64,000 nucleotides of DNA from Rhodothermales bacterium (GTDB lineage Bacteria > Bacteroidota > Rhodothermia > Rhodothermales > VXPQ01): the NCBI GenBank assembly GCA_022821845.1, contig JAJECT010000024.1:66393-130392 (forward strand). The letters are read 5' to 3'. The notes under the pieces were generated by a model, which saw only the letters and a program-made list of their open reading frames with translations, was not told the origin of the DNA and did not search any database. The position numbers and the translations under genes are program-made. Shown here piece after piece: positions 1 through 12,917 of this stretch; position 1 is the first letter of the stretch, and every line of letters begins with the position of its first letter.

Positions 1-534
1 CGCGCCCATCTCGATCTGCCGGTGGAGGACATGTTCGCCGCCATTACGAAGGATCTAGGCGAACGCTATCCGGGCCTGATCGAGACCGAACGCGAGTGGT
101 TCCTGTCCAACGCAGGCGGCGCGATGGGACAGCTCTCGATCCTCTACGCCTCGCTGCGGGAATACGTGATTTTTTTCGGCACGCCCATCGGGACGGCGGG
201 ACACACGGGCCGGTATTCGTTCGCCGAAGACTACGCGATGATTCTGGATGGAGAAATGTGGCACTACGGCCTGGGAAGTACGCAGCGGGAGGAATATCGC
301 CCGGGCGACGTCGTGCATTTGCGGCGACGCGAGGCCAAGGCCTACCGCATGGTTGATCACTGCTGGATTCTTGAATACGCGCGCGGATCGGTGCCTTCCA
401 TGCTGCCCTTCGGCGTTGCAGACACCTTATTTAGCACGCTCGACATAGCGACCCTGTTCCGCACGTTTCGCATCTACGGCAAGCAAGCGCTGCGTTCCGC
501 TCGAAGACGCCGCGCGGCGCGCAGGGGACGCTAA
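1..534 (+). CDS. ERG2/sigma-1-receptor family C-8 sterol isomerase (5' end lies outside the window)
   Basis: Frame is open to the window edge. Protein carries family hallmarks: EWxxxNAGGAMGQ, EYVIFFGTPIGTAGHTGR, EDYAMILDGE, LEYARGSVPSMLPFGVADTLFSTLDIATLFRT, closely matching yeast ERG2. Confidence 0.92.
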   Translation, partial: RAHLDLPVEDMFAAITKDLGERYPGLIETEREWFLSNAGGAMGQLSILYASLREYVIFFGTPIGTAGHTGRYSFAEDYAMILDGEMWHYGLGSTQREEYRPGDVVHLRRREAKAYRMVDHCWILEYARGSVPSMLPFGVADTLFSTLDIATLFRTFRIYGKQALRSARRRRAARRGR

Positions 535-3500
535 GGACACGCTGGACAAAACGCCTGTTTCCGCGTCGGCGGCGTCGCAGGCAGGGAGCGGGGACGTCTC
601 CGGATTGAGCCGCGCCTGCCGCCGCCGCTCGTAAACGCCCAGCGCGTACAAGGGGAAATACTGTCGATACAAGGCATAGTCCAGCATCGCCGTGCGGAAA
701 AACACGCCGGCCATGTCTTGCCTGGGCCATGTCCCGTCCGCCTGCTGCGCGTCGATCAAAAACCGGACGCCCCGCGAAATCGCGGTCCAGTTCGGATCGT
801 CTGCTTCGAGGAGCGCGATCAACGCCCAGGCCGTCTGGATGACCTGGCTTTCCTCATGCGGAACGTATTGGCCAATCAGGCAGCCGGTGTGGCGCTCGCC
901 CCACCCCCCGTCCGCCAACTGACGGTCCAGAAGCCAGCGGCAGGCCAATCGAATCGCCGGATCGCCCGGACGGGCCCCGGCAGCCAACAGGCCCCGGATC
1001 CCGAAAAGGGCGCCGTACACGAATTGTACCCCCCATACGCCGCGCCATGCCCCGTCGCTTGCCTGGGCCCGGCGAAGCCAGGCTTCGCCCCTTGCCATGG
1101 CGTTCGCCGCCGCCGGGTCCGCACCCTGCGGAAAATGTTTCTTGCACGCAGCAAGCGCCGCAAGGCAGGAAGCGGTGCATTCGACCCAGGAATGCTCGGT
1201 CATCGACTCGCCAAACATTTCGGCTGGATTCAACCACTCAAGGCCGATCGCCGCGCGGCGCGCTTCGTAACTGCCGAAACCGCCGTCGCGGTTCTGGCCG
1301 CGCAGCATGAACCGGACCGCATCCCCGACCGCCTCGGCGGATATGGCCTGCGGATTGGCCGCCAGAATGCCCAGCAGCGCCTCTGCGGTACAGTCGGTCA
1401 CCGGCCAGCCATGCCATTTCCCCGGGAAACACCAACCGCCCTTCGGATCGGTCCGATACGCCTCGCGGAATCCTTCGAAGCGGGCGTCGATTTGTTGTCG
1501 GCGCAGGAAAGCGGCTCCTCGCTGGAGGGCGTTGCGGACCCCGTCGGACGTGGGCGCCAGCGCCAGCGCCTGCAAGGAAAATCCGGTGTCCCACGAAGAA
1601 CTTCGGGCTCCGGTGACCCGCGCGCCAAGCGCCTCGTCCTCCCATATCCAGTCATCCAGCTTGTCGAACGCCTTGCGGCAATCGGCGTCGTCTGGATTGC
1701 GCAGCCACAAGGCAAGGATGTTCAGGAACCCGCTGACCGGAGAGATGCTCGCATGGCTGGTGGTGCGCAGCTCCCATTTGACGCGGCGGATTAACGCTTC
1801 CGTACATCGGGCGCGCAGGCGTTTGCCATGGAATCGTTCGAAGACCCGCGCAAATCCATACCCGGCCCGAAGCCACGCGCTGGGGCGGGCATACAGGTCG
1901 GCGTCCCGCAAACGATTGCGTCCCGAGGCAAAATCGACGCGGGCGAAGCCTTCGGGGTACAACTCCTCCCGAAGCGATGCAATCAGGGGCGTGCGCGGCG
2001 CCTGGAACCGATGCGGATACATCGCCGCCATCGCCATGTAGATGAGCCGGGTATGGCAATACCAGTTCGACGGATGCAGCGGAATCCAGCGCGGCAAGCG
2101 CCACAATTCCGGCAGGATGACGCGCACGCCGCGCCAGTCGTAGAGATTGAGGAGCGCCAGCCAGAATTTGCCCCAACTCGGAATGTTGAGAACCTGCTCC
2201 GCGCGCAGGAAGCGGCGGGCCGGTTCTATCAGCGGATCGCCTTGCTCGACGCCCAGCGTTCTCGCCGCGACATACACCAGCGTGGTGACGAACAGGTTGG
2301 GCCGGGCCTGCTCGTGCAAACCCCACAAGCCTCCTTCGAGGCGGGTCTGTTCGAAGGAGCGGAGCAGGCGCCTGCGGCGTTCGGGCGCAATCGGGCGCGC
2401 CATAATGTAGTGCAACAGCGCATATTGCGCGGTGAGCATGGAACACCAGGTCATTTCGCCTTCCCAGGCGCCCTCTTCGCTCTGGAGGCGCAGCAAGCGC
2501 TCGGCGGCGCTGCGCAACGCCGGCGCGGCGTCCGGCGACGCGACGTCCTTCGGGCGGACGGGCGGGGGCGCGCGAAAACTCGACGGCAAGGAGATCAGAA
2601 GCGCGCGGGCGAAGGGGTACGGGGATTGATCGCCCTTGTTTTCGCCCTTTTGTTCGGTCGCGCCTTGCGCTTTGCGCAGCTGCCGAACGCCCCGCAGGAG
2701 CCACTTCACGCGAAAAGCGAGCGCGTTCGCCACGTCGCGAACCCGGCGCCAGGCGAACCGGTTCAGGGAGCGCGGAACCTCTGAGGCCACCGCCCGGACC
2801 ACGATCATGAAACCCGACAGCCCCAGACGAGCCGTCGAGGTGTCTTCGCAAGCAAGCAGGCGCATGGTCCGATTCCGAAACGCGGAACTTGCCCGCCACC
2901 GCCGGTAGACCATACGCCGCACCGCCACGGTCTCGACCCGATGGTCGGCGAACACTTCGTAGATCTCCATGGCGAGCAGTTCCGGCGTGCGGACCGCCTG
3001 GAAGCGTTTGGAGACAAAGCCGCGGAAATCCCCGTTTTCGGCGAGTGCAAGCGCATCGCCGAAACCCAGCGTCATCCCCACGGCCGTCAGAGGGTGGTAA
3101 TACCCGGCCGCATCGCCAATAAGCACGCGTTCCGGGCTTCCGTACGTAACGCGCGGACTCAGCGCATTGGCCGCCGCGTGGAATTCGCCCGCCCGCAGCG
3201 CTTCGACGAACGCCGCCCTGAGCGTTTCCGGCAAAAAACCGACCGCGTCCGAGAGGAAGCCAACCCGGTCCCCCGGCGCCCAGTATTCCAGCGGGATATC
3301 GACGATAACCCGAATGCGATGCGGCCCCAGGCGGTATATAAAAATGGGACCCGGCCCGCCGCAAACCAGATGACCATACCCCTCCACCGGCAACGTTGCG
3401 TCCCGCACCGTAACCCCCACCATCCGGGAGCAGGTCATCTCTTTGGGGTTTATCGACAAGCCCAGCGATCTGCGCACGATGGAGGCCCGCCCGTCCGCCC

Positions 3501-3966
3501 CGACAATGCGATCGGCGGTCACGGATTTCATGGCGCCCTTATGGGCGAAATCAACCCGCTTGTCTGCGACCGCCCGCACCCGCGCATAGGAAATAAAGTC
3601 GATATCCGACTCGTTCTGGACGGCGTCGCGCAAAGCCGAGATAATCGCTGTATGCTCGCACGCCAAACCGTGAGATCCGTTCGGATAAGGAAGCACGATC
3701 GGGGCCGAGTTGTCTTCCGGCAACACGACGAACCCCCTGCCCGCGGCGCTATGCGGCGGCGTACCGAGCGCGATCCCCATGTCTTGCAATATCCGCACGG
3801 CGGGCGGGTGGAGCCATTCCCCCGCCATTCGCCTGGTGGAATTGGGGCTTGCTTCGAACAAGGCGACCCGCGCGCCCTTTCGCGCGTGCGCGAGCGCGCA
3901 CAGGCTGCCCACCGGACCCGCGCCAACGATGGCTACGTCATAGTGCGGCAATGCGGCGTCGCTCAT
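427..3966 (-). CDS. Squalene monooxygenase-oxidosqualene cyclase fusion protein
   Basis: Uninterrupted ORF. N-terminal half is an FAD monooxygenase (DVAIVGAGPVGSLCALAHARKG, GADGRASIVRRSLGL, VLIGDAAGYYHPLTAVGMTLGFGDAL). C-terminal half is a triterpene cyclase with QW-type repeats and the OSC motif GWPVTDCTAEA. The ORF track starts at 4035; the ATG at 3966 overlaps the P450 stop (ATGA). Confidence 0.92.
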   Translation of the reverse strand: MSDAALPHYDVAIVGAGPVGSLCALAHARKGARVALFEASPNSTRRMAGEWLHPPAVRILQDMGIALGTPPHSAAGRGFVVLPEDNSAPIVLPYPNGSHGLACEHTAIISALRDAVQNESDIDFISYARVRAVADKRVDFAHKGAMKSVTADRIVGADGRASIVRRSLGLSINPKEMTCSRMVGVTVRDATLPVEGYGHLVCGGPGPIFIYRLGPHRIRVIVDIPLEYWAPGDRVGFLSDAVGFLPETLRAAFVEALRAGEFHAAANALSPRVTYGSPERVLIGDAAGYYHPLTAVGMTLGFGDALALAENGDFRGFVSKRFQAVRTPELLAMEIYEVFADHRVETVAVRRMVYRRWRASSAFRNRTMRLLACEDTSTARLGLSGFMIVVRAVASEVPRSLNRFAWRRVRDVANALAFRVKWLLRGVRQLRKAQGATEQKGENKGDQSPYPFARALLISLPSSFRAPPPVRPKDVASPDAAPALRSAAERLLRLQSEEGAWEGEMTWCSMLTAQYALLHYIMARPIAPERRRRLLRSFEQTRLEGGLWGLHEQARPNLFVTTLVYVAARTLGVEQGDPLIEPARRFLRAEQVLNIPSWGKFWLALLNLYDWRGVRVILPELWRLPRWIPLHPSNWYCHTRLIYMAMAAMYPHRFQAPRTPLIASLREELYPEGFARVDFASGRNRLRDADLYARPSAWLRAGYGFARVFERFHGKRLRARCTEALIRRVKWELRTTSHASISPVSGFLNILALWLRNPDDADCRKAFDKLDDWIWEDEALGARVTGARSSSWDTGFSLQALALAPTSDGVRNALQRGAAFLRRQQIDARFEGFREAYRTDPKGGWCFPGKWHGWPVTDCTAEALLGILAANPQAISAEAVGDAVRFMLRGQNRDGGFGSYEARRAAIGLEWLNPAEMFGESMTEHSWVECTASCLAALAACKKHFPQGADPAAANAMARGEAWLRRAQASDGAWRGVWGVQFVYGALFGIRGLLAAGARPGDPAIRLACRWLLDRQLADGGWGERHTGCLIGQYVPHEESQVIQTAWALIALLEADDPNWTAISRGVRFLIDAQQADGTWPRQDMAGVFFRTAMLDYALYRQYFPLYALGVYERRRQARLNPETSPLPACDAADAETGVLSSVSLASPARRAASSSGTQRLLAVDAKRAEQGRYVERAK

Positions 3967-5375
3967 TGGAACAGGCTCGCTTCCGGGCGGCGGCGATAAC
4001 GGACTCGGCATGGCGCCCTGGGACCCGTCACCCAACTACCGTAATTCGGGGCGGGAATCGCAGCGTCCAGGCGGAAATCGAAGCGATCCAGCAACAGGGT
4101 CCAGATTGCTTTCAATTGCATGTACGCAAAATGTTTTCCCATGCATCGGTGCTTGCCGCCGCCAAATCCAATCAGGGCGTAGTGGTGTTGCTTGTCCTCG
4201 GCGGCGGGGGGCGCGAAACGATCCGGCGCAAACCGCTCCGGGTTCGCGAAAACATGGGGCAACCGGTGGGAAACGGCGGGCGACACCATCGCCAACGCGC
4301 CGGCGGGCACGACATGCCCCCCGTATCGCATGGGTTTGAGAACCTTGCGGATTAACAAAATAAGCGGCGGGTGCAGCCGTTCGTTCTCCCGTATGGCGCG
4401 TTCGAGGGCCGCCTGTCGCTTGAGCGTCTCGAAATTCATGGTTGCGCCCGGCGCGCGGTAAACGTTTTGCATCTCGTCTCGCACCTGCGCCAGAGAGGCG
4501 GGCGCATTCAGCAGTTCCAGCCCGGTCCAGGTTGCGAGCACCGCGCTGGTATGCTGGCCTGCGAACAGCACCGTCAGCAGGATCCCGGTAATCTCGTCGT
4601 CGCTCAAGGCGCGACCGTCCTTGTACCGCGCGCGCAGGAGCGTCTGCATGAAATCGTCGGGCTCGGCTCCAGAAAGCCGGCGGCCAGCCATGATGCGGCT
4701 AAAGAGTTCGGCCACCTTGCGGCGGGCCCGGTCGCGGCTTCGGTGCGACGGGACAGGGAGTCTGGGGAGAAAAAATCCCAGCGCGTTGATGCCTTTCTGC
4801 AGATCGCGATAGGCCTCGGCGAAGCCCGCGTCCAGCTGATCCCGGATTTCCTCGCCAATCAGGCAATGGCTGGCGATATTGACGGTCAACGCGTTCATCG
4901 CCGCGGGCAGATCGATTTCTCCCTCTTCGCCAAGGGCGTCGGCGAACTGCTTCGTCTCTTCGAACATGATGCGCGCAAACCGGTGCATCGCGGTTTCCCG
5001 AAGCGCCGGGACAAGAAAACCCAACTGCTCGGACATGATTTCGGGGGCAACGTCGTAGGCCACGCCGCGACCGAAGATGGGGACCGTAAACTGATAGACT
5101 GCCTTGGCGTCCAGTTGATCCTCGGGCGCTCTGAAGTACGCGTCGTGGGCCTCCGGCCCCGTGAAAAGAACGCACTCGCGGGGACCGAGCCGGAATCGGA
5201 CCAGTTCGCCTTGCTCTCGCCATCCCCGCCGCATCATGGAGACAGGATCCTTGCGGAAATCCAGCAAGTGCCCGATCAACGGCCACCCGCCCGCAAGCTC
5301 GGGAACAGCCTCTGGCGCCCGCCGCGTTCGCTGCGCGGAAAGCGGGGTTCCTTCATGGAGAGCTGTATGCGCCAC
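3963..5375 (-). CDS. Cytochrome P450, CYP51-like (sterol 14-alpha-demethylase)
   Basis: I-helix LLTVLFAGQHTSAVLATW (AGQHTS is typical of CYP51) and heme loop FGGGKHRCMGKHFAYMQLKAIW. Confidence 0.9.
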   Translation of the reverse strand: MAHTALHEGTPLSAQRTRRAPEAVPELAGGWPLIGHLLDFRKDPVSMMRRGWREQGELVRFRLGPRECVLFTGPEAHDAYFRAPEDQLDAKAVYQFTVPIFGRGVAYDVAPEIMSEQLGFLVPALRETAMHRFARIMFEETKQFADALGEEGEIDLPAAMNALTVNIASHCLIGEEIRDQLDAGFAEAYRDLQKGINALGFFLPRLPVPSHRSRDRARRKVAELFSRIMAGRRLSGAEPDDFMQTLLRARYKDGRALSDDEITGILLTVLFAGQHTSAVLATWTGLELLNAPASLAQVRDEMQNVYRAPGATMNFETLKRQAALERAIRENERLHPPLILLIRKVLKPMRYGGHVVPAGALAMVSPAVSHRLPHVFANPERFAPDRFAPPAAEDKQHHYALIGFGGGKHRCMGKHFAYMQLKAIWTLLLDRFDFRLDAAIPAPNYGSWVTGPRAPCRVRYRRRPEASLFQ

Positions 5376-5384
5376 CGCGTATCC

Positions 5385-6485
5385 TCAATAGATGAATGGC
5401 AACATGTAGTAAGGCACGCGCTGCGTGTATTGTTCCCACAACGCGCCGTACTTGGCGCGGCATCGGCGTTCGTCGCGGCGCGAACGATGCCACAACAAGC
5501 CCGCCAGCCACGCAGGCAGCAGGTAGGGCGCCCAGGACGCGAACCCGGTGGTAAGCGCGAACGCCAGATAGACGCATATCTCGCCGGTATAGTTCAGATG
5601 GCGGGCAATGCCCCAAAATCCGGAAACCAGCAAGCGGCCCTCGATGGACTCGGCAGGCTTGCCCCAAATCGCGACGCGGGAATCGCGCTTGAAACGATGC
5701 TTTTGCTGGTTGGCGCCGCGAAAAACCCAGAAGCCGAGAACAAACAGCAGCGCGATCATGGCGGCGGCGAAAGGAGACAGCGAAGGCGATGCATGGACCA
5801 GCCACCAGCCGGGGAGGCAATAGAAAAAGGGCACCAGAACGTAGTCTCCCCAAACCAGCATCCATCCGAAGCGCTCGCTAACCATGTCCCAGGTGTACGC
5901 CATCCCGTGTTCGAACTGGAAATAGTTCAACGCATACAAAAAGACGAATCCCTGATAAAGCGCCATAGCGAGGGTCAATCGCCCGTATAACTCGTACTGC
6001 GCAACCGCAAAAGACGCATTGAACAACGCCAGGCCAATAAGGGAAGGGCGGTAGCTGAAAATCTTCAAATCCACTCCGAGCAACGTCGGATTGAATTCCG
6101 ATCCAAAGAAGAAACGTCGCCGTCCCCCCGACGAGGCCTCCCTAACCGCTGTTTTGCGAAAATACAACCAGGCGGAAAAGGCGAAGGCGAAAATATTGGC
6201 CGCCACAAACAGCGCGGCGAAATGCGTATACAGCGCGGAAAGAGAAAACAGGCCGAATGCCTGGGCCAGACACACCCCGACCGCCGTCATAAGAAAGAGG
6301 GCAAGGCCGTTGAATGTATAGGTCCGCGATCGTCCCGCTATTTCCGGCCCTGCAAGACGATGTCCGGGAACCACCTTCGAACCCAGAAACAAAACGCCGA
6401 CAAACGCCAGCGTCATGGCCGCCGCCGCAAGCAGGCCGCCGGGCGACAGCGAAGACCACAGGAAGTGCGGTTCAACCGCTGACAT
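5385..6485 (-). CDS. ERG4/ERG24 family sterol reductase (putative C-14 sterol reductase)
   Basis: Multi-pass membrane protein with C-terminal GFWGIARHLNYTGEICVYLAFALTTG...HRSRRDERRCRAKYGALWEQYTQRVPYYMLPFIY, diagnostic of ERG4/ERG24/DHCR7. Confidence 0.88.
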   Translation of the reverse strand: MSAVEPHFLWSSLSPGGLLAAAAMTLAFVGVLFLGSKVVPGHRLAGPEIAGRSRTYTFNGLALFLMTAVGVCLAQAFGLFSLSALYTHFAALFVAANIFAFAFSAWLYFRKTAVREASSGGRRRFFFGSEFNPTLLGVDLKIFSYRPSLIGLALFNASFAVAQYELYGRLTLAMALYQGFVFLYALNYFQFEHGMAYTWDMVSERFGWMLVWGDYVLVPFFYCLPGWWLVHASPSLSPFAAAMIALLFVLGFWVFRGANQQKHRFKRDSRVAIWGKPAESIEGRLLVSGFWGIARHLNYTGEICVYLAFALTTGFASWAPYLLPAWLAGLLWHRSRRDERRCRAKYGALWEQYTQRVPYYMLPFIY

Positions 6486-7596
6486 TGGCGTCCTCCGCCT
6501 CGCGGGCCAAATGCTCTTGCCACTTGCGCACAGTTACCTTTTGAAAAGCCCGCACCACGGGATTAACCTCGATGGGCGGAGCGTCCCAGTGTTTTTCGTA
6601 CCCTTCCTGTTCTGCTTCGACCGCAACGCGATCCTCGGAAAGCAGGGGGCTAATCAGTAAGCGGTTTGCGAACTTCAACACCGTGGTCATGGCCCAACGG
6701 GGAATGCGCGCAGGCAGATAGGGTATCTTCAACGACCTGAAATAGAAGAGGAAGAACGCCCGGGTGGTGCGCTCGTCCACCGGCAGTACGAAAAGCCAGT
6801 GCTTGATCTCGTCATCGGTGTTCGACCACTGATAGGGATATTCATAGCATAGATCCATGTGGTTGGTGTCCACCCGGTCGTGCTCCACAAACAGCCCGGA
6901 GATGCGCCCGCGCCCAACCTGCGTATTGTACGCAAGGTGTACGTTGTCGCCGATGGTCTCGTTGCGGGTAAGCTCGGCGCCCGTGAAAGGACGGTATCGA
7001 CGGTGCAAATACGCGTGGGAGAAGTCGCTCACATTGTCGATCACCATGGAGTGGTGAGCCGAACAGGTAAAACTTAGCGGTACGCAGGACCACCGCTTGG
7101 GGCCCTCAAGTTCGGGAATCTCCGGAATCTTGCGCGACTGCGCCATCTCCGGCCTCCCGGGAAACAACCAGACCAGACCGTAACGAACCTGCACAGGATA
7201 ATGTCTGACCCAGAGTTTCGGCAGTTTTTTCCGTCCGAAGAGATCGGGAATCGCGGCGACGCGTCCGTCTCCATCGTACTCCCAGCCATGATAAGCGCAC
7301 ACAAGCCTGCACCCTTCCACCTCGCCCATCGAGAGTTTCAGCTGGCGATGAAGGCAACGGTTCTCAATGGCGTGAAACGAGCCGTCTTCCGTGCGATACA
7401 ACGCAATGGAACGTTTCCAGAAAGTGACCTCTATCGCGGTCCCCGGTTTGATTCGCCGCGCTTCTGCCACGGCGTACCAGTAATCCGGATCCATACCTGC
7501 CGCGCGCGCTTGCTGGCGCAAGGTGCGGGCTTCTTCGAAACCGGGCGGCGGCGCCAGCGCCGGATTCGCATGCAACATCGGTTGAGCGTTAGGCAT
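6472..7596 (-). CDS. Rieske non-heme iron oxygenase, SdmA-like (putative sterol C-4 demethylation)
   Basis: Rieske motif CLHRQLKLSMGEVEGCRLVCAYHGW and mononuclear Fe motif DNVSDFSHAYLH. Start set at MPNAQPMLHAN; the ORF track extends upstream into the neighbouring gene. Confidence 0.85.
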   Translation of the reverse strand: MPNAQPMLHANPALAPPPGFEEARTLRQQARAAGMDPDYWYAVAEARRIKPGTAIEVTFWKRSIALYRTEDGSFHAIENRCLHRQLKLSMGEVEGCRLVCAYHGWEYDGDGRVAAIPDLFGRKKLPKLWVRHYPVQVRYGLVWLFPGRPEMAQSRKIPEIPELEGPKRWSCVPLSFTCSAHHSMVIDNVSDFSHAYLHRRYRPFTGAELTRNETIGDNVHLAYNTQVGRGRISGLFVEHDRVDTNHMDLCYEYPYQWSNTDDEIKHWLFVLPVDERTTRAFFLFYFRSLKIPYLPARIPRWAMTTVLKFANRLLISPLLSEDRVAVEAEQEGYEKHWDAPPIEVNPVVRAFQKVTVRKWQEHLAREAEDANVSG

Positions 7597-7621
7597 TAGG
7601 GGGGTATGCTGATTATTTCGA

Positions 7622-8701
7622 TTAGCGGGGGCGTTTCGCGCGCGGATTCGTAATCGCGTTGCGATGGTAATGAAACGCATAGGCTTCATGCACCGCATCG
7701 CGTATGCTGGTTGGCTGATAACCAAGCTCCTGCCGCGCCTTGCTGGTGTCCGCATGACGGCGCTTCTTCAGCAGCCGGATGGCGCCCGGCGTAAACCGCT
7801 GGGGAAAATTCGGGTGAAACCGGCTCAGATAAAAGCTGGCCACTTCCGAAAAGACGAGCATCGCCTGGGTTGGAATCCGCCGACTCGAACGCAAAATGCC
7901 CGAAACCTCCTCAAATAAATCCAGAATTTCGGAAATGGTCTTGTACTCGCTGCTGAAAATATATTTTTCGCCCGCGCGGCCCCGGCGCATGCACAACAAA
8001 TGTCCTTCTACGATGTCTCGCGCCGCGACAAACTCGAAACCGCCGTCCACGTACGCGCGAACCTTGCCGCGGGTATGATCGCACAAGGTTCTTCCCAGTC
8101 GCGAGGGAAAATAATCGTGGCCTCCAATGACCGCGCAACACGTCGCCACAATAACGTCCTGTCCCTTCGCCGCCGCTTTCCAGCACTCGTGCTCAACCAG
8201 GGCCTTGCTTCGCTCGTAGGGCATCGTACGCTCCATGGGATAGAACTGCATGGTCTCGTCGCTGGGGGCGGACGGATCGTCCAGATCGTACCCGACCGCG
8301 CTGAAAGAGCCGGTCACCACCACCCGCCCGGCGCCCGCTTCCCGCGCCGCCTGCAACACGTTGCGGGTGCCAAGCACGTTGCACTCGAACACCTCCCGAC
8401 GATGGGCGCGGTTGCCTTCGATGGTTGATATCCGGGCGGCGACGTGATAGACCCCCTGGCAGCCTTCGAGCGCGCGCCGGGTGGCGTCCAGGTCCCGAAT
8501 GTCGCCAAACACGCGTTCCACGTCAAGCCCTTCCAGTCCTTCGTTGTTGTCCTCATGCCGCAACAACACCCGGACCCGAACGCCGTCGTCAAGCAATCGA
8601 CGCAAAAGATTGGCCCCGACATGCCCGGCCGAACCCGTCAAAAAAACCGGGGCGGGCGATACGCTGGCGGATATATTCGAAACGGACATACTACTGGACA
8701 A
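7622..8701 (-). CDS. NAD(P)-dependent 3-beta-HSD/epimerase family protein, SdmB-like
   Basis: TGSAGHVGANLL nucleotide-binding motif and YERSK active site; first gene of the sterol operon. Confidence 0.82.
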   Translation of the reverse strand: MSSSMSVSNISASVSPAPVFLTGSAGHVGANLLRRLLDDGVRVRVLLRHEDNNEGLEGLDVERVFGDIRDLDATRRALEGCQGVYHVAARISTIEGNRAHRREVFECNVLGTRNVLQAAREAGAGRVVVTGSFSAVGYDLDDPSAPSDETMQFYPMERTMPYERSKALVEHECWKAAAKGQDVIVATCCAVIGGHDYFPSRLGRTLCDHTRGKVRAYVDGGFEFVAARDIVEGHLLCMRRGRAGEKYIFSSEYKTISEILDLFEEVSGILRSSRRIPTQAMLVFSEVASFYLSRFHPNFPQRFTPGAIRLLKKRRHADTSKARQELGYQPTSIRDAVHEAYAFHYHRNAITNPRAKRPR

Positions 8702-9245: not shown

Positions 9246-12200
9246 ATGAAAAACCGTTCGCTCCGTTCGCGTCTGCCGCTCCTCTTTGCGCTCTGCTGCG
9301 CGGCAACCATGTTCTCCTCGGGCCTCGGTACGCCCAGACAGGATCGCGTCCTGGTGTTCTCGAAAACGGAGGCATTCCGGCACGGATCCATCGAAACAAG
9401 CGTGGAGGCCATCCACCAGCTGGGCGCAGCGCACGGCTTTGGCGTGGACGCAACCGAAGACGCGGCGCTGTTTACGGAAAAGAATCTGAAGAACTACCGC
9501 GCCGTGATCTTCCTGAACACGACGGGAGACGTGCTCGATCCGGGGCAACAGGCCGAATTCGAGCGATTCATCCAGGCGGGGGGCGGCTACGTCGGCGTCC
9601 ACGCGGCCACCGATACGGAATACGACTGGCCCTGGTACGGAAAACTTGTGGGCGCATACTTTGATGGCCACCCCAACAACCCGAACGTGCGGAGCGGCGT
9701 CTTTCGGGTGCTTCGCAAAGACCATCCTTCGACGGAGGGGCTTCCAGACCGATGGGAACGCGAGGACGAGTTCTACAACTTCCGTTCCATCAACCCCGAT
9801 ATCCATGTCCTGATCGATATTGACGAGACCACATACGAAGGGGGAACGAACGGCGAGAACCATCCGATGAGCTGGTACCACGAATACGACGGCGGACGGG
9901 CGTGGTACACCGCCATGGGGCATACGGACGAAACGTTTGCGGAGCCGCTATTCCTGCAACATCTGCTGGGGGGGATTCGGTACGCCATGGGCAGCGAGGC
10001 GCTGGATTACGCCCGCGCCCGCCCGCAAGAGAACCGCTTTACCAAAATCGTGCTTGCCGAGCCGCTCGCCGAACCCATGGAACTGGTCGTGCTGCCGGAC
10101 GAGCGCGTACTGTTCATCGAGCGGGGCGGCGCCGTGCGTCTCTATCGTCCCGATACGGAACAGGTCGCGCAGATTGCGACGATCCCGGTTAGCACGCAGT
10201 ACCTGAATGGCGACGTTGCAGAGGATGGCCTCCTTGGCGTCGCCGCCGACCCTGGCTTCGCGGAAAACGGCTGGCTCTATCTTTACTATTCCCCCGCCGG
10301 GGACGATCCGAAGAATGTGCTTGCCCGCTACCGCATGCAAGGCGACACGCTGGACCTGGAAACGAAACAGACGATCCTGGAGGTAGCCGTGCAACGAGAC
10401 GAATGTTGCCACACGGGAGGCTCCATGGCCTTCGACGCGGACGGCAACCTGTATCTTTCCACGGGCGACAACACGAATCCGCATGCAACAGGCTACGCGC
10501 CCATTGACGAGCGGCCCGGACGAGGCGCCTGGGACGCCCAGAAATCCTCCGGCAACACAAACGACCTGCGGGGCAAGATTCTCCGCATTACGCCGCAACC
10601 GGACGGTACGTACGCCATTCCCGAAGGGAACCTTTTCCCGCCCGGCACGCCCGGCGCGCGTCCTGAAATCTACACGATGGGCCACCGGAATCCGTTCCGC
10701 ATTTCGGTAGACCGGCGCACGGGCTTTCTGTATTGGGGGGACATCGGGCCGGACGCCAGCCGCGACTCCACGGACCGAGGCCCCGCCGGCTACGACGAGT
10801 TCAACCAGGCGCGCGCCGCAGGCAACTACGGCTGGCCCTATGTCGTCGGCGACAACACGCCCTACCACGACTACGATTTCGTTGCGCAAGCGCCCGGCGC
10901 CGCCTTCGATCCGGCCCGCCTCGCAAACGATTCTCCGAACAATACGGGCCTCGCCGAACTGCCTCCGGCCCAGCCTGCGTTCCTGTGGTACGCCGCCGGA
11001 CCCTCGGAGGAATTTCCGCTCCTTGGCAGCGGCGGCCGCTCGGCGATGGCCGGACCCGTTTTCTATCGGGACGATTTCGCGGGCGCCGACCGACCGTTCC
11101 CGGCCTGGTACGACGGCAAACTCTTTCTGTACGAATGGATGCGCGGCTGGATTATGGCCGTGACCATGAACGAGGAAGGCGACTTCCTGTCGATGGAACG
11201 CTTCATGCCGAGCCATCGCTTCAGCAACCCCATGGACATGGCGTTTGGGCCCAATGGCGACCTGTACGTGCTGGAGTACGGCACAGCCTGGTTCACGGCC
11301 AATGACGACGCCCGGCTTGTCCGCATCGAATACAACGAAGGCAACCGCAAGCCCGTTGCCCGGGTCGCCGCGGACCGGACCGCCGGCGCCACGCCCCTCC
11401 GCGTTGCGTTCTCTTCCGAAGGAACCGTCGACGCCGACGGGGATGCGCTTCGCTACGAATGGACCCTGGCCGCCCAAGACGGAACCGTCCTCGACCAGGC
11501 GAGCGAACCGCATCCCGCGTATACGTTCGAAGAGCCGGGGATATACGCCGCCACGCTGACCGTAACCGACGCGCAGGGCGCAAGCACGACGGCGATGGCG
11601 CAAATCGTGGCGGGGAACGAACCGCCGGAAGTGCAAATCGACCTGGCGGCGGGGAACCGCTCGTTCTTCTTTCCCGGCGCCCCGATCCGCTACGCCGTCC
11701 GCGTAAGCGACCAGGAGGACGGCTCGTTGCAAGACGGACGGATTGCCGCGGAGAATGTAGCGGTCACGGCAAACTACCTGCGGGAAGGATACGACCTCGT
11801 AGTGATCGCGCAGGGGCATCGCGCGGCGGACGCTTTGGCGGCGCAGGCGCCCGGACGAACACTGGTGGAAGGGGAAACCTGTCTCGCCTGCCATCAGGTC
11901 GATCAGCCTTCCGTCGGGCCTTCCTATATGGCTGTGGCGGAGCAATACGAGGGCGAGGCGGACGCCGCGGAGCGCCTGACGACCAACATCCTGGAGGGGA
12001 GCGCCGGCGTCTGGGGCGACATGGCCATGCCGCCGCATCCGCAGCTCTCCGAAAACGAGGCGCGACAGATGGTAGAATACATCCTGAGCCTGACGGAGGA
12101 ACCCGATACGCCCGCGTCTCTGCCCATCGAGGGAAGCTACGCGCCGCCGGGCGCAGGGGACGGCGCGGCGGAAGGCATTGTCGTGCTCCGCGCAGCGTAC

Positions 12201-12917
12201 ACAGACCGGGGCGGCAACGGCTTGCCCGGCGCGTCCAGCGAGGAAACGCTCGTGCTCCGCGCCCCGACCGTCGTGGTCGCCGACGGCGAATTGGGCGACG
12301 GCGTCATGAAATTCGCCGCCCCCCAGTTCCCGACCCCCATGACCGTCGTATTGTTGCCAGATTCGTACGTTCGGCTCGGAAAACTGGACCTGACCGGAAT
12401 TTCGGAGGTGCGATTCACTGCGCTGACGCCCGAACAACTTCAGGCGCAAGGGGGCAAGGTGGAAATTCGACTGGACGCGCCGGACGGGCGGCTCGTGGGC
12501 GCAACCGACTTCATCAAGGGCATTGCAATGCCCGCGCCCTTCTCCGCCGCGCTCGAGCCCGCAACCGGAATACACGACGTATACCTCACGTTCAAAAATG
12601 ACGAACACGAAGGGGGCGGAGGGCTTTTCGTCCTCATGACCGCGGAGTTCGTCAGCGGCGAGGCGACGGCGGAAAATACGCAGCCAACGCCGGCACAGGC
12701 GGCGTCTGCGGGCCTGAGTACGCATAGTCCGTTGCGAGACATTCTGGACCGCGAAGAGGCCAAGGCAGTCCTGGACAAGCATGTCCCCGGCATGGCGGAG
12801 AATCCGCAGCTCCAGCAAGCGCTGAACATGTCGCTGCGAGAGATTGCGCCCTACGCGCCCGAAACCTTCACCGAAGCATTGCTCGAAGCCATCGACGAGG
12901 ACCTGGCCGAGTTGTAG
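9246..12917 (+). CDS. ThuA-like / PQQ-type sugar dehydrogenase / PKD / cytochrome c multidomain secreted protein
   Basis: N-terminal ThuA-like segment (KTEAFRHGSIETSVEAIHQLG), sorbosone dehydrogenase-like propeller (GLLGVAADPGFAENGWLYLYY), PKD-like segment, heme site CLACH. Confidence 0.85.
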   Translation: MKNRSLRSRLPLLFALCCAATMFSSGLGTPRQDRVLVFSKTEAFRHGSIETSVEAIHQLGAAHGFGVDATEDAALFTEKNLKNYRAVIFLNTTGDVLDPGQQAEFERFIQAGGGYVGVHAATDTEYDWPWYGKLVGAYFDGHPNNPNVRSGVFRVLRKDHPSTEGLPDRWEREDEFYNFRSINPDIHVLIDIDETTYEGGTNGENHPMSWYHEYDGGRAWYTAMGHTDETFAEPLFLQHLLGGIRYAMGSEALDYARARPQENRFTKIVLAEPLAEPMELVVLPDERVLFIERGGAVRLYRPDTEQVAQIATIPVSTQYLNGDVAEDGLLGVAADPGFAENGWLYLYYSPAGDDPKNVLARYRMQGDTLDLETKQTILEVAVQRDECCHTGGSMAFDADGNLYLSTGDNTNPHATGYAPIDERPGRGAWDAQKSSGNTNDLRGKILRITPQPDGTYAIPEGNLFPPGTPGARPEIYTMGHRNPFRISVDRRTGFLYWGDIGPDASRDSTDRGPAGYDEFNQARAAGNYGWPYVVGDNTPYHDYDFVAQAPGAAFDPARLANDSPNNTGLAELPPAQPAFLWYAAGPSEEFPLLGSGGRSAMAGPVFYRDDFAGADRPFPAWYDGKLFLYEWMRGWIMAVTMNEEGDFLSMERFMPSHRFSNPMDMAFGPNGDLYVLEYGTAWFTANDDARLVRIEYNEGNRKPVARVAADRTAGATPLRVAFSSEGTVDADGDALRYEWTLAAQDGTVLDQASEPHPAYTFEEPGIYAATLTVTDAQGASTTAMAQIVAGNEPPEVQIDLAAGNRSFFFPGAPIRYAVRVSDQEDGSLQDGRIAAENVAVTANYLREGYDLVVIAQGHRAADALAAQAPGRTLVEGETCLACHQVDQPSVGPSYMAVAEQYEGEADAAERLTTNILEGSAGVWGDMAMPPHPQLSENEARQMVEYILSLTEEPDTPASLPIEGSYAPPGAGDGAAEGIVVLRAAYTDRGGNGLPGASSEETLVLRAPTVVVADGELGDGVMKFAAPQFPTPMTVVLLPDSYVRLGKLDLTGISEVRFTALTPEQLQAQGGKVEIRLDAPDGRLVGATDFIKGIAMPAPFSAALEPATGIHDVYLTFKNDEHEGGGGLFVLMTAEFVSGEATAENTQPTPAQAASAGLSTHSPLRDILDREEAKAVLDKHVPGMAENPQLQQALNMSLREIAPYAPETFTEALLEAIDEDLAEL

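Follow-up and report, generated by a model that had tools for sequence, protein, structure and literature searches.

Described counterparts of the genes considered here include the SdmA and SdmB homologues of Methylococcus, Enhygromyxa and Calothrix, all of which act at sterol C-4 in E. coli (PMC10202945). In Methylococcus capsulatus the two proteins are a Rieske oxygenase and an SDR encoded side by side in the order A then B, and one methyl group is removed; SdmAB of Calothrix sp. NIES-4105 removes both (PMC10202945). The Enhygromyxa salina SdmAB gave just the 4-methylaldehyde and needed a further protein, SdmC, which is 51% identical to SdmB in Enhygromyxa and was reported to occur in Nannocystaceae alone (PMC10202945). 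SdmAB homologues lie beside eukaryote-like C-14 and later steps in both Calothrix and Enhygromyxa, a combination reported in the same study (PMC10202945). Sterol clusters are also known from sponge symbionts: PMC10070321 describes clusters with sdmA, sdmB, SMT, other erg homologues and a fused SMO/OSC, the fusion being mentioned there in the methods, and ERG24-CYP51-LSS clusters were found in 115 of 537 Ircinia MAGs from ten phyla with evidence for horizontal transfer (PMC9531527), SdmA and SdmB being left unannotated in the latter. Bacterial sterols bear on how fossil steranes are read and on where the sterols of sponges come from.

Here we describe a sterol gene cluster in a stretch of 64,000 nucleotides, hereafter the window, from a Rhodothermales bacterium whose genome (2.8 Mb) is 95.8% complete and which, judging by its relatives, is probably marine and sponge-associated. 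On the minus strand, between positions 427 and 8701, lie in transcription order an SDR, a Rieske protein, an ERG4/ERG24-family reductase, a P450 and a SQE-OSC fusion (Table 1). We predict from sequence, with a probability of about 0.85, that the first two form a bacterial-type sterol C-4 demethylase. The layout sdmB-sdmA-ERG24-CYP51-(SQE-OSC fused) with SMT nearby is that of the sponge-symbiont clusters, and the same set of sdmAB, erg homologues, OSC, SMT and, in several, ERG2 has been described before (PMC10070321). The window departs from these in its Rhodothermales-like genome and in an SMT-ERG2 pair convergent to the operon, which is no difference in kind; the cluster is a further example of the published pattern, not a new kind.

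Table 1. Sterol genes of the cluster (positions in the window unless a locus is named).
Gene	Position	Strand	Remarks
sdmB-like SDR	7622..8689	-	355 aa from ATG 8689; TTG 8701 possible too
sdmA-like Rieske oxygenase	6472..7596	-	374 aa
ERG24-type sterol C-14 reductase	5385..6485	-	366 aa
CYP51 sterol 14-alpha-demethylase	3963..5375	-	470 aa, GTG start
Squalene epoxidase-oxidosqualene cyclase fusion	427..3966	-	1179 aa from ATG 3966; ORF 1202 aa
ERG2/sigma-1-type sterol C-8 isomerase	1..534	+	convergent with operon; start outside window (L002:18352-18927)
SMT/ERG6 gene	L002:17336-18355, outside window		precedes ERG2, convergent with operon

The SDR frame runs from 8701 to 7622 if read from TTG, the ATG being the likelier start. 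The Rieske frame opens at 7755 (427 aa), an over-long start that we rejected because homologues begin near its residue 54, which makes ATG 7596 the likely start of sdmA and leaves 25 nt after the sdmB stop. The genes that follow are equally close: sdmA and ERG24 overlap by 14 nt, ERG24 and CYP51 are 9 nt apart, and CYP51 overlaps the SQE-OSC gene by 4 nt. Since the next gene on the upstream side, at 9246-12917, is transcribed divergently, the pair heads the operon, as the preliminary description had placed it, on the same strand as the rest, and it is probably co-transcribed with ERG24, CYP51 and SQE-OSC. An assembly artefact is unlikely, because in a sister MAG (locus L017, on the same contig as G302) the cluster and its flanks recur with 92-99% identity.

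The Rieske protein consists of a Rieske domain (78.7 bits) and a VanA_C domain (52.3 bits), and the Pfam search found no KshA_C catalytic domain (PF19298). Against NCBIfam it matches SdmA (NF052579) with 411.8 bits and E 2e-123, the next family reaching 34 bits, and SdmA is likewise the sole strong match in all 25 aligned members of its clade (E up to 1e-20). The curated cut-off of this Methylococcales equivalog is 600 bits, which the protein, at 412 bits, does not reach. Its score is intermediate between those of the Methylococcus-type proteins (675-715) and those of the remaining Rieske oxygenases found, none of which exceeds about 192. By Methylococcus-type we mean proteins that score above the NCBIfam Methylococcales cut-off and have the A-then-B gene order, and by Methylococcales-order those from the same order as the Methylococcus-type genomes. 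Identities follow the same gradation, at 64-97% inside the clade, 50-54% to a second clade, of Methylococcales-order genomes, 40-46% to SdmA of the Methylococcus type, 27-32% to the rest of the Rieske oxygenases and 17-23% to proteins with a KshA domain. By motif, the Rieske cluster ligands (CxH...CxxH) are C81, H83, C100 and H103, and the mononuclear iron ligands are H194, H198 and D322 with D191 as the bridging residue; CxH-CxxH and DxxHxxxH with its downstream D are invariant in the 25 members and aligned with the Methylococcus-type rows. In the tree, the window clade (support 98/99) joins this second clade (95/97) and then the Methylococcus-type proteins, with KshA far off; the branch uniting all SdmA (81/80) has moderate support, and long branches meet there. 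Placement with SdmA rather than with KshA or other ring-hydroxylating oxygenases thus agrees with the preliminary description. Calothrix and Enhygromyxa are likened to the window by description, not by sequence, the SdmA and SdmB trees being without their proteins.

The SDR, of the NAD(P)-dependent kind, carries the motifs TGxxGxxG and YxxxK and is recognised by Pfam as Epimerase/3Beta_HSD. It scores 294.5 bits on the SdmB model (NF052578) and 232.5 on that of HpnA, the hopanoid sugar epimerase. The SdmB model too is a Methylococcales equivalog with a curated cut-off of 600 bits, above the 294.5 of the SDR, and one Methylococcus-type SdmB reaches 687.6. As a control, the scores of true HpnA proteins lie near 460 with their own model and near 230-260 with that of SdmB. 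The tree was rebuilt after fragments and long branches had disturbed its first version, and it groups the SDR with Methylococcus-type SdmB (37-41% identity), with 97/96 for all SdmB and the HpnA rows apart (99/94); the control scores and the tree together rule out HpnA, and the SDR belongs with SdmB as had been proposed. The SdmA and SdmB trees agree in the order (Methylococcus-type, (Methylococcales-order second clade, sponge clade)). Because both proteins lie below the equivalog cut-offs, we file them in the broad SdmA and SdmB clades and in the sponge-symbiont cluster, not in the Methylococcales equivalogs.

The remainder of the pathway is also found in the genome. The best solved relatives of the P450 are bacterial CYP51 (PDB 7jj1/6mi0, E 1e-107), and the ERG24-type reductase, the only PF01222 protein of the genome, matches the delta(14)-sterol reductase 4quv (E 1e-69). 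ERG2 (PF04622, 223.9 bits) lies at the window edge and beyond, and SMT matches PF08498 with 79 bits; EBP, considered as the C-8 enzyme, is absent from the genome. No FA_hydroxylase protein, the family of ERG25 and ERG3, was found in the 95.8% complete genome. The preliminary description had proposed a bacterial C-4 route in place of ERG25/26/27, and the SdmA/SdmB placement together with the missing ERG25-type genes bears this out. It had also suggested a bacterial-type C-4 step joined to eukaryote-like C-14 and C-8 steps; CYP51, ERG24 and ERG2 are indeed present, with the qualification that at C-14 the closest solved relatives are bacterial CYP51 and 4quv. The combination itself is not new, having been published for Enhygromyxa and Calothrix (PMC10202945) and for sponge symbionts (PMC10070321).

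Read from these genes, the route would lead from squalene through oxidosqualene to a lanosterol-type sterol, then by C-14 demethylation and reduction, C-4 demethylation and C-24 alkylation to the shift from delta-8 to delta-7. The fused SQE-OSC would carry out epoxidation and cyclisation, and CYP51 and ERG24 the C-14 demethylation and reduction. SdmA, with its Rieske centre and non-haem iron, would use O2 and electrons, presumably from an unlinked ferredoxin/reductase, to oxidise a C-4 methyl of the C-14-demethylated lanosterol derivative stepwise to the acid. By analogy with the characterised homologues (PMC10202945), SdmB would oxidise the 3-hydroxyl, permitting decarboxylation, and then reduce the 3-ketone. 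SMT would alkylate C-24 and ERG2 would shift the double bond to delta-7; as ERG3 and DHCR7-type genes are missing, a delta-7 end product is expected. The pair may remove one or both C-4 methyls; an AlphaFold model of SdmA (pLDDT 54) is too poor for inspection of the pocket. A bolder proposal, which we hold tentatively and at somewhat less than an even chance, is that SdmAB of the window clade removes both C-4 methyls with no third reductase, that the seven-gene cluster lets one bacterium make fully C-4- and C-14-demethylated, C-24-alkylated delta-7 sterols unaided, and that this unit has spread among sponge symbionts belonging to about ten phyla.

The Rieske protein could instead be a degradative steroid or aromatic oxygenase of the KshA kind, unrelated to sterol synthesis, given that Rieske oxygenases are numerous and diverse in function and share a generic fold. 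This we consider extremely improbable, as KshA rows are only 17-23% identical and distant in the tree, the C-terminal domain is VanA_C and not KshA_C, and the gene sits within a sterol-biosynthesis operon; the tree and the C-terminal domain rule this candidate out. Less extreme, though still quite improbable, is a sterol oxygenase working at another position, on the side chain or a ring, with the SDR a separate 3-hydroxysteroid or sugar-type dehydrogenase adjacent by chance. That both proteins score under the equivalog cut-offs, and that 40-46% identity to Methylococcus-type SdmA leaves room for altered regiochemistry, speaks for it. Set against this are the agreement of the two trees in placing both partners, the persistence of the pair across about ten phyla, the genome being without another known C-4 route, and the action at C-4 of the Calothrix and Enhygromyxa homologues (PMC10202945).

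Within the demethylase reading itself, the pair may be a C-4 oxidase that is incomplete alone and relies on a further reductase from elsewhere in the genome, from the host or from other symbionts. Enhygromyxa SdmAB, which stopped at the 4-methylaldehyde and did not demethylate without SdmC (PMC10202945), is the precedent, and it means that homology is no guarantee that a pair suffices. We regard this as unlikely here, since the next-best full-length SDR of the genome is only 31% identical to the SdmB-like SDR, which leaves no SdmC candidate, and no SdmB paralogue exceeds 36% over a stretch; none was seen near the clusters of relatives save one partial 63-bit match at the edge of L018, and SdmC has been reported just in Nannocystaceae (PMC10202945).

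A genome scan for relatives of the window Rieske protein returned 80 loci (64-97% identity), some of them from genomes named as sponge bins, in Rhodothermota, Bacteroidota, Verrucomicrobiota, Acidobacteriota, Chloroflexota, Binatota, Nitrospirota, Actinomycetota and Pseudomonadota, that is about ten phyla. Of these loci, 63 keep the five-gene order sdmB-sdmA-ERG24-CYP51-(SQE-OSC) unbroken, which excludes chance adjacency. Both SQE and OSC were found at 72 loci; they form one polypeptide in 68 and are separate in four (L022, L023, L092 and L096). Over 66 loci the distance matrices show correlations of 0.77-0.92 among the five genes, against a permutation maximum of 0.27, indicating that the genes evolve together and are transferred as one block; spread over many phyla and horizontal transfer were argued earlier for such clusters (PMC9531527, PMC10070321). 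Plasmid records held just unrelated Rieske proteins, at most 36% identical over most of their length. With C-4 genes fixed in a cluster mobile between phyla, symbionts could produce C-4-demethylated sterols independently of their host.

In the phylum of the window SdmA is rare, occurring in 5 of 396 sampled genomes, which belong to two genera of one order. G353 (L201), of the same genus, conserves both flanks on a single contig at 79-87%, with other genes instead of sterol genes between them, and in G377 (L202), likewise of that genus, one gene per side was found (78-81%), again with no sterol genes between. This pattern is consistent with the cluster having been gained or lost at a variable site. 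Compared with C36:51538-79309, about 10-12 kb of other genes lie between the conserved flanks in G353 and G377, a variable chromosomal slot.

The second SdmAB clade (L123-L138, L151-L155) comes from the order that also holds the Methylococcus-type pair. It is the sister of the window clade, with 47-54% identity and the same sdmB-then-sdmA order. An OSC above the family cut-off was found in 11 of the 12 genomes tested, so that the clade as a whole tracks sterol synthesis; in five larger regions examined, neither ERG24 nor CYP51 nor OSC adjoins the pair, and a literature search found no published function. Together with the window clade it makes up a set of uncharacterised homologues of the SdmAB enzymes that remove one methyl or two.

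Other genes lie next to or near the clusters of relatives. An amine-oxidase-type flavoprotein (20 loci, e.g., L069:16897-18297) and a squalene/phytoene synthase (15 loci, e.g., L091:16077-17168) are among them, neither being seen beside the cluster of the window. At 12 loci, ORFs such as L087:4528-6618 encode an unusual pair of domains, GPP34 (Golgi phosphoprotein 3) followed by a P450. Genes similar to L058:1795-4149, at 11 loci, encode an MMPL/RND transporter with similarity to sterol-sensing domains, which may transport sterols, as do the products of the Methylococcus bst genes.
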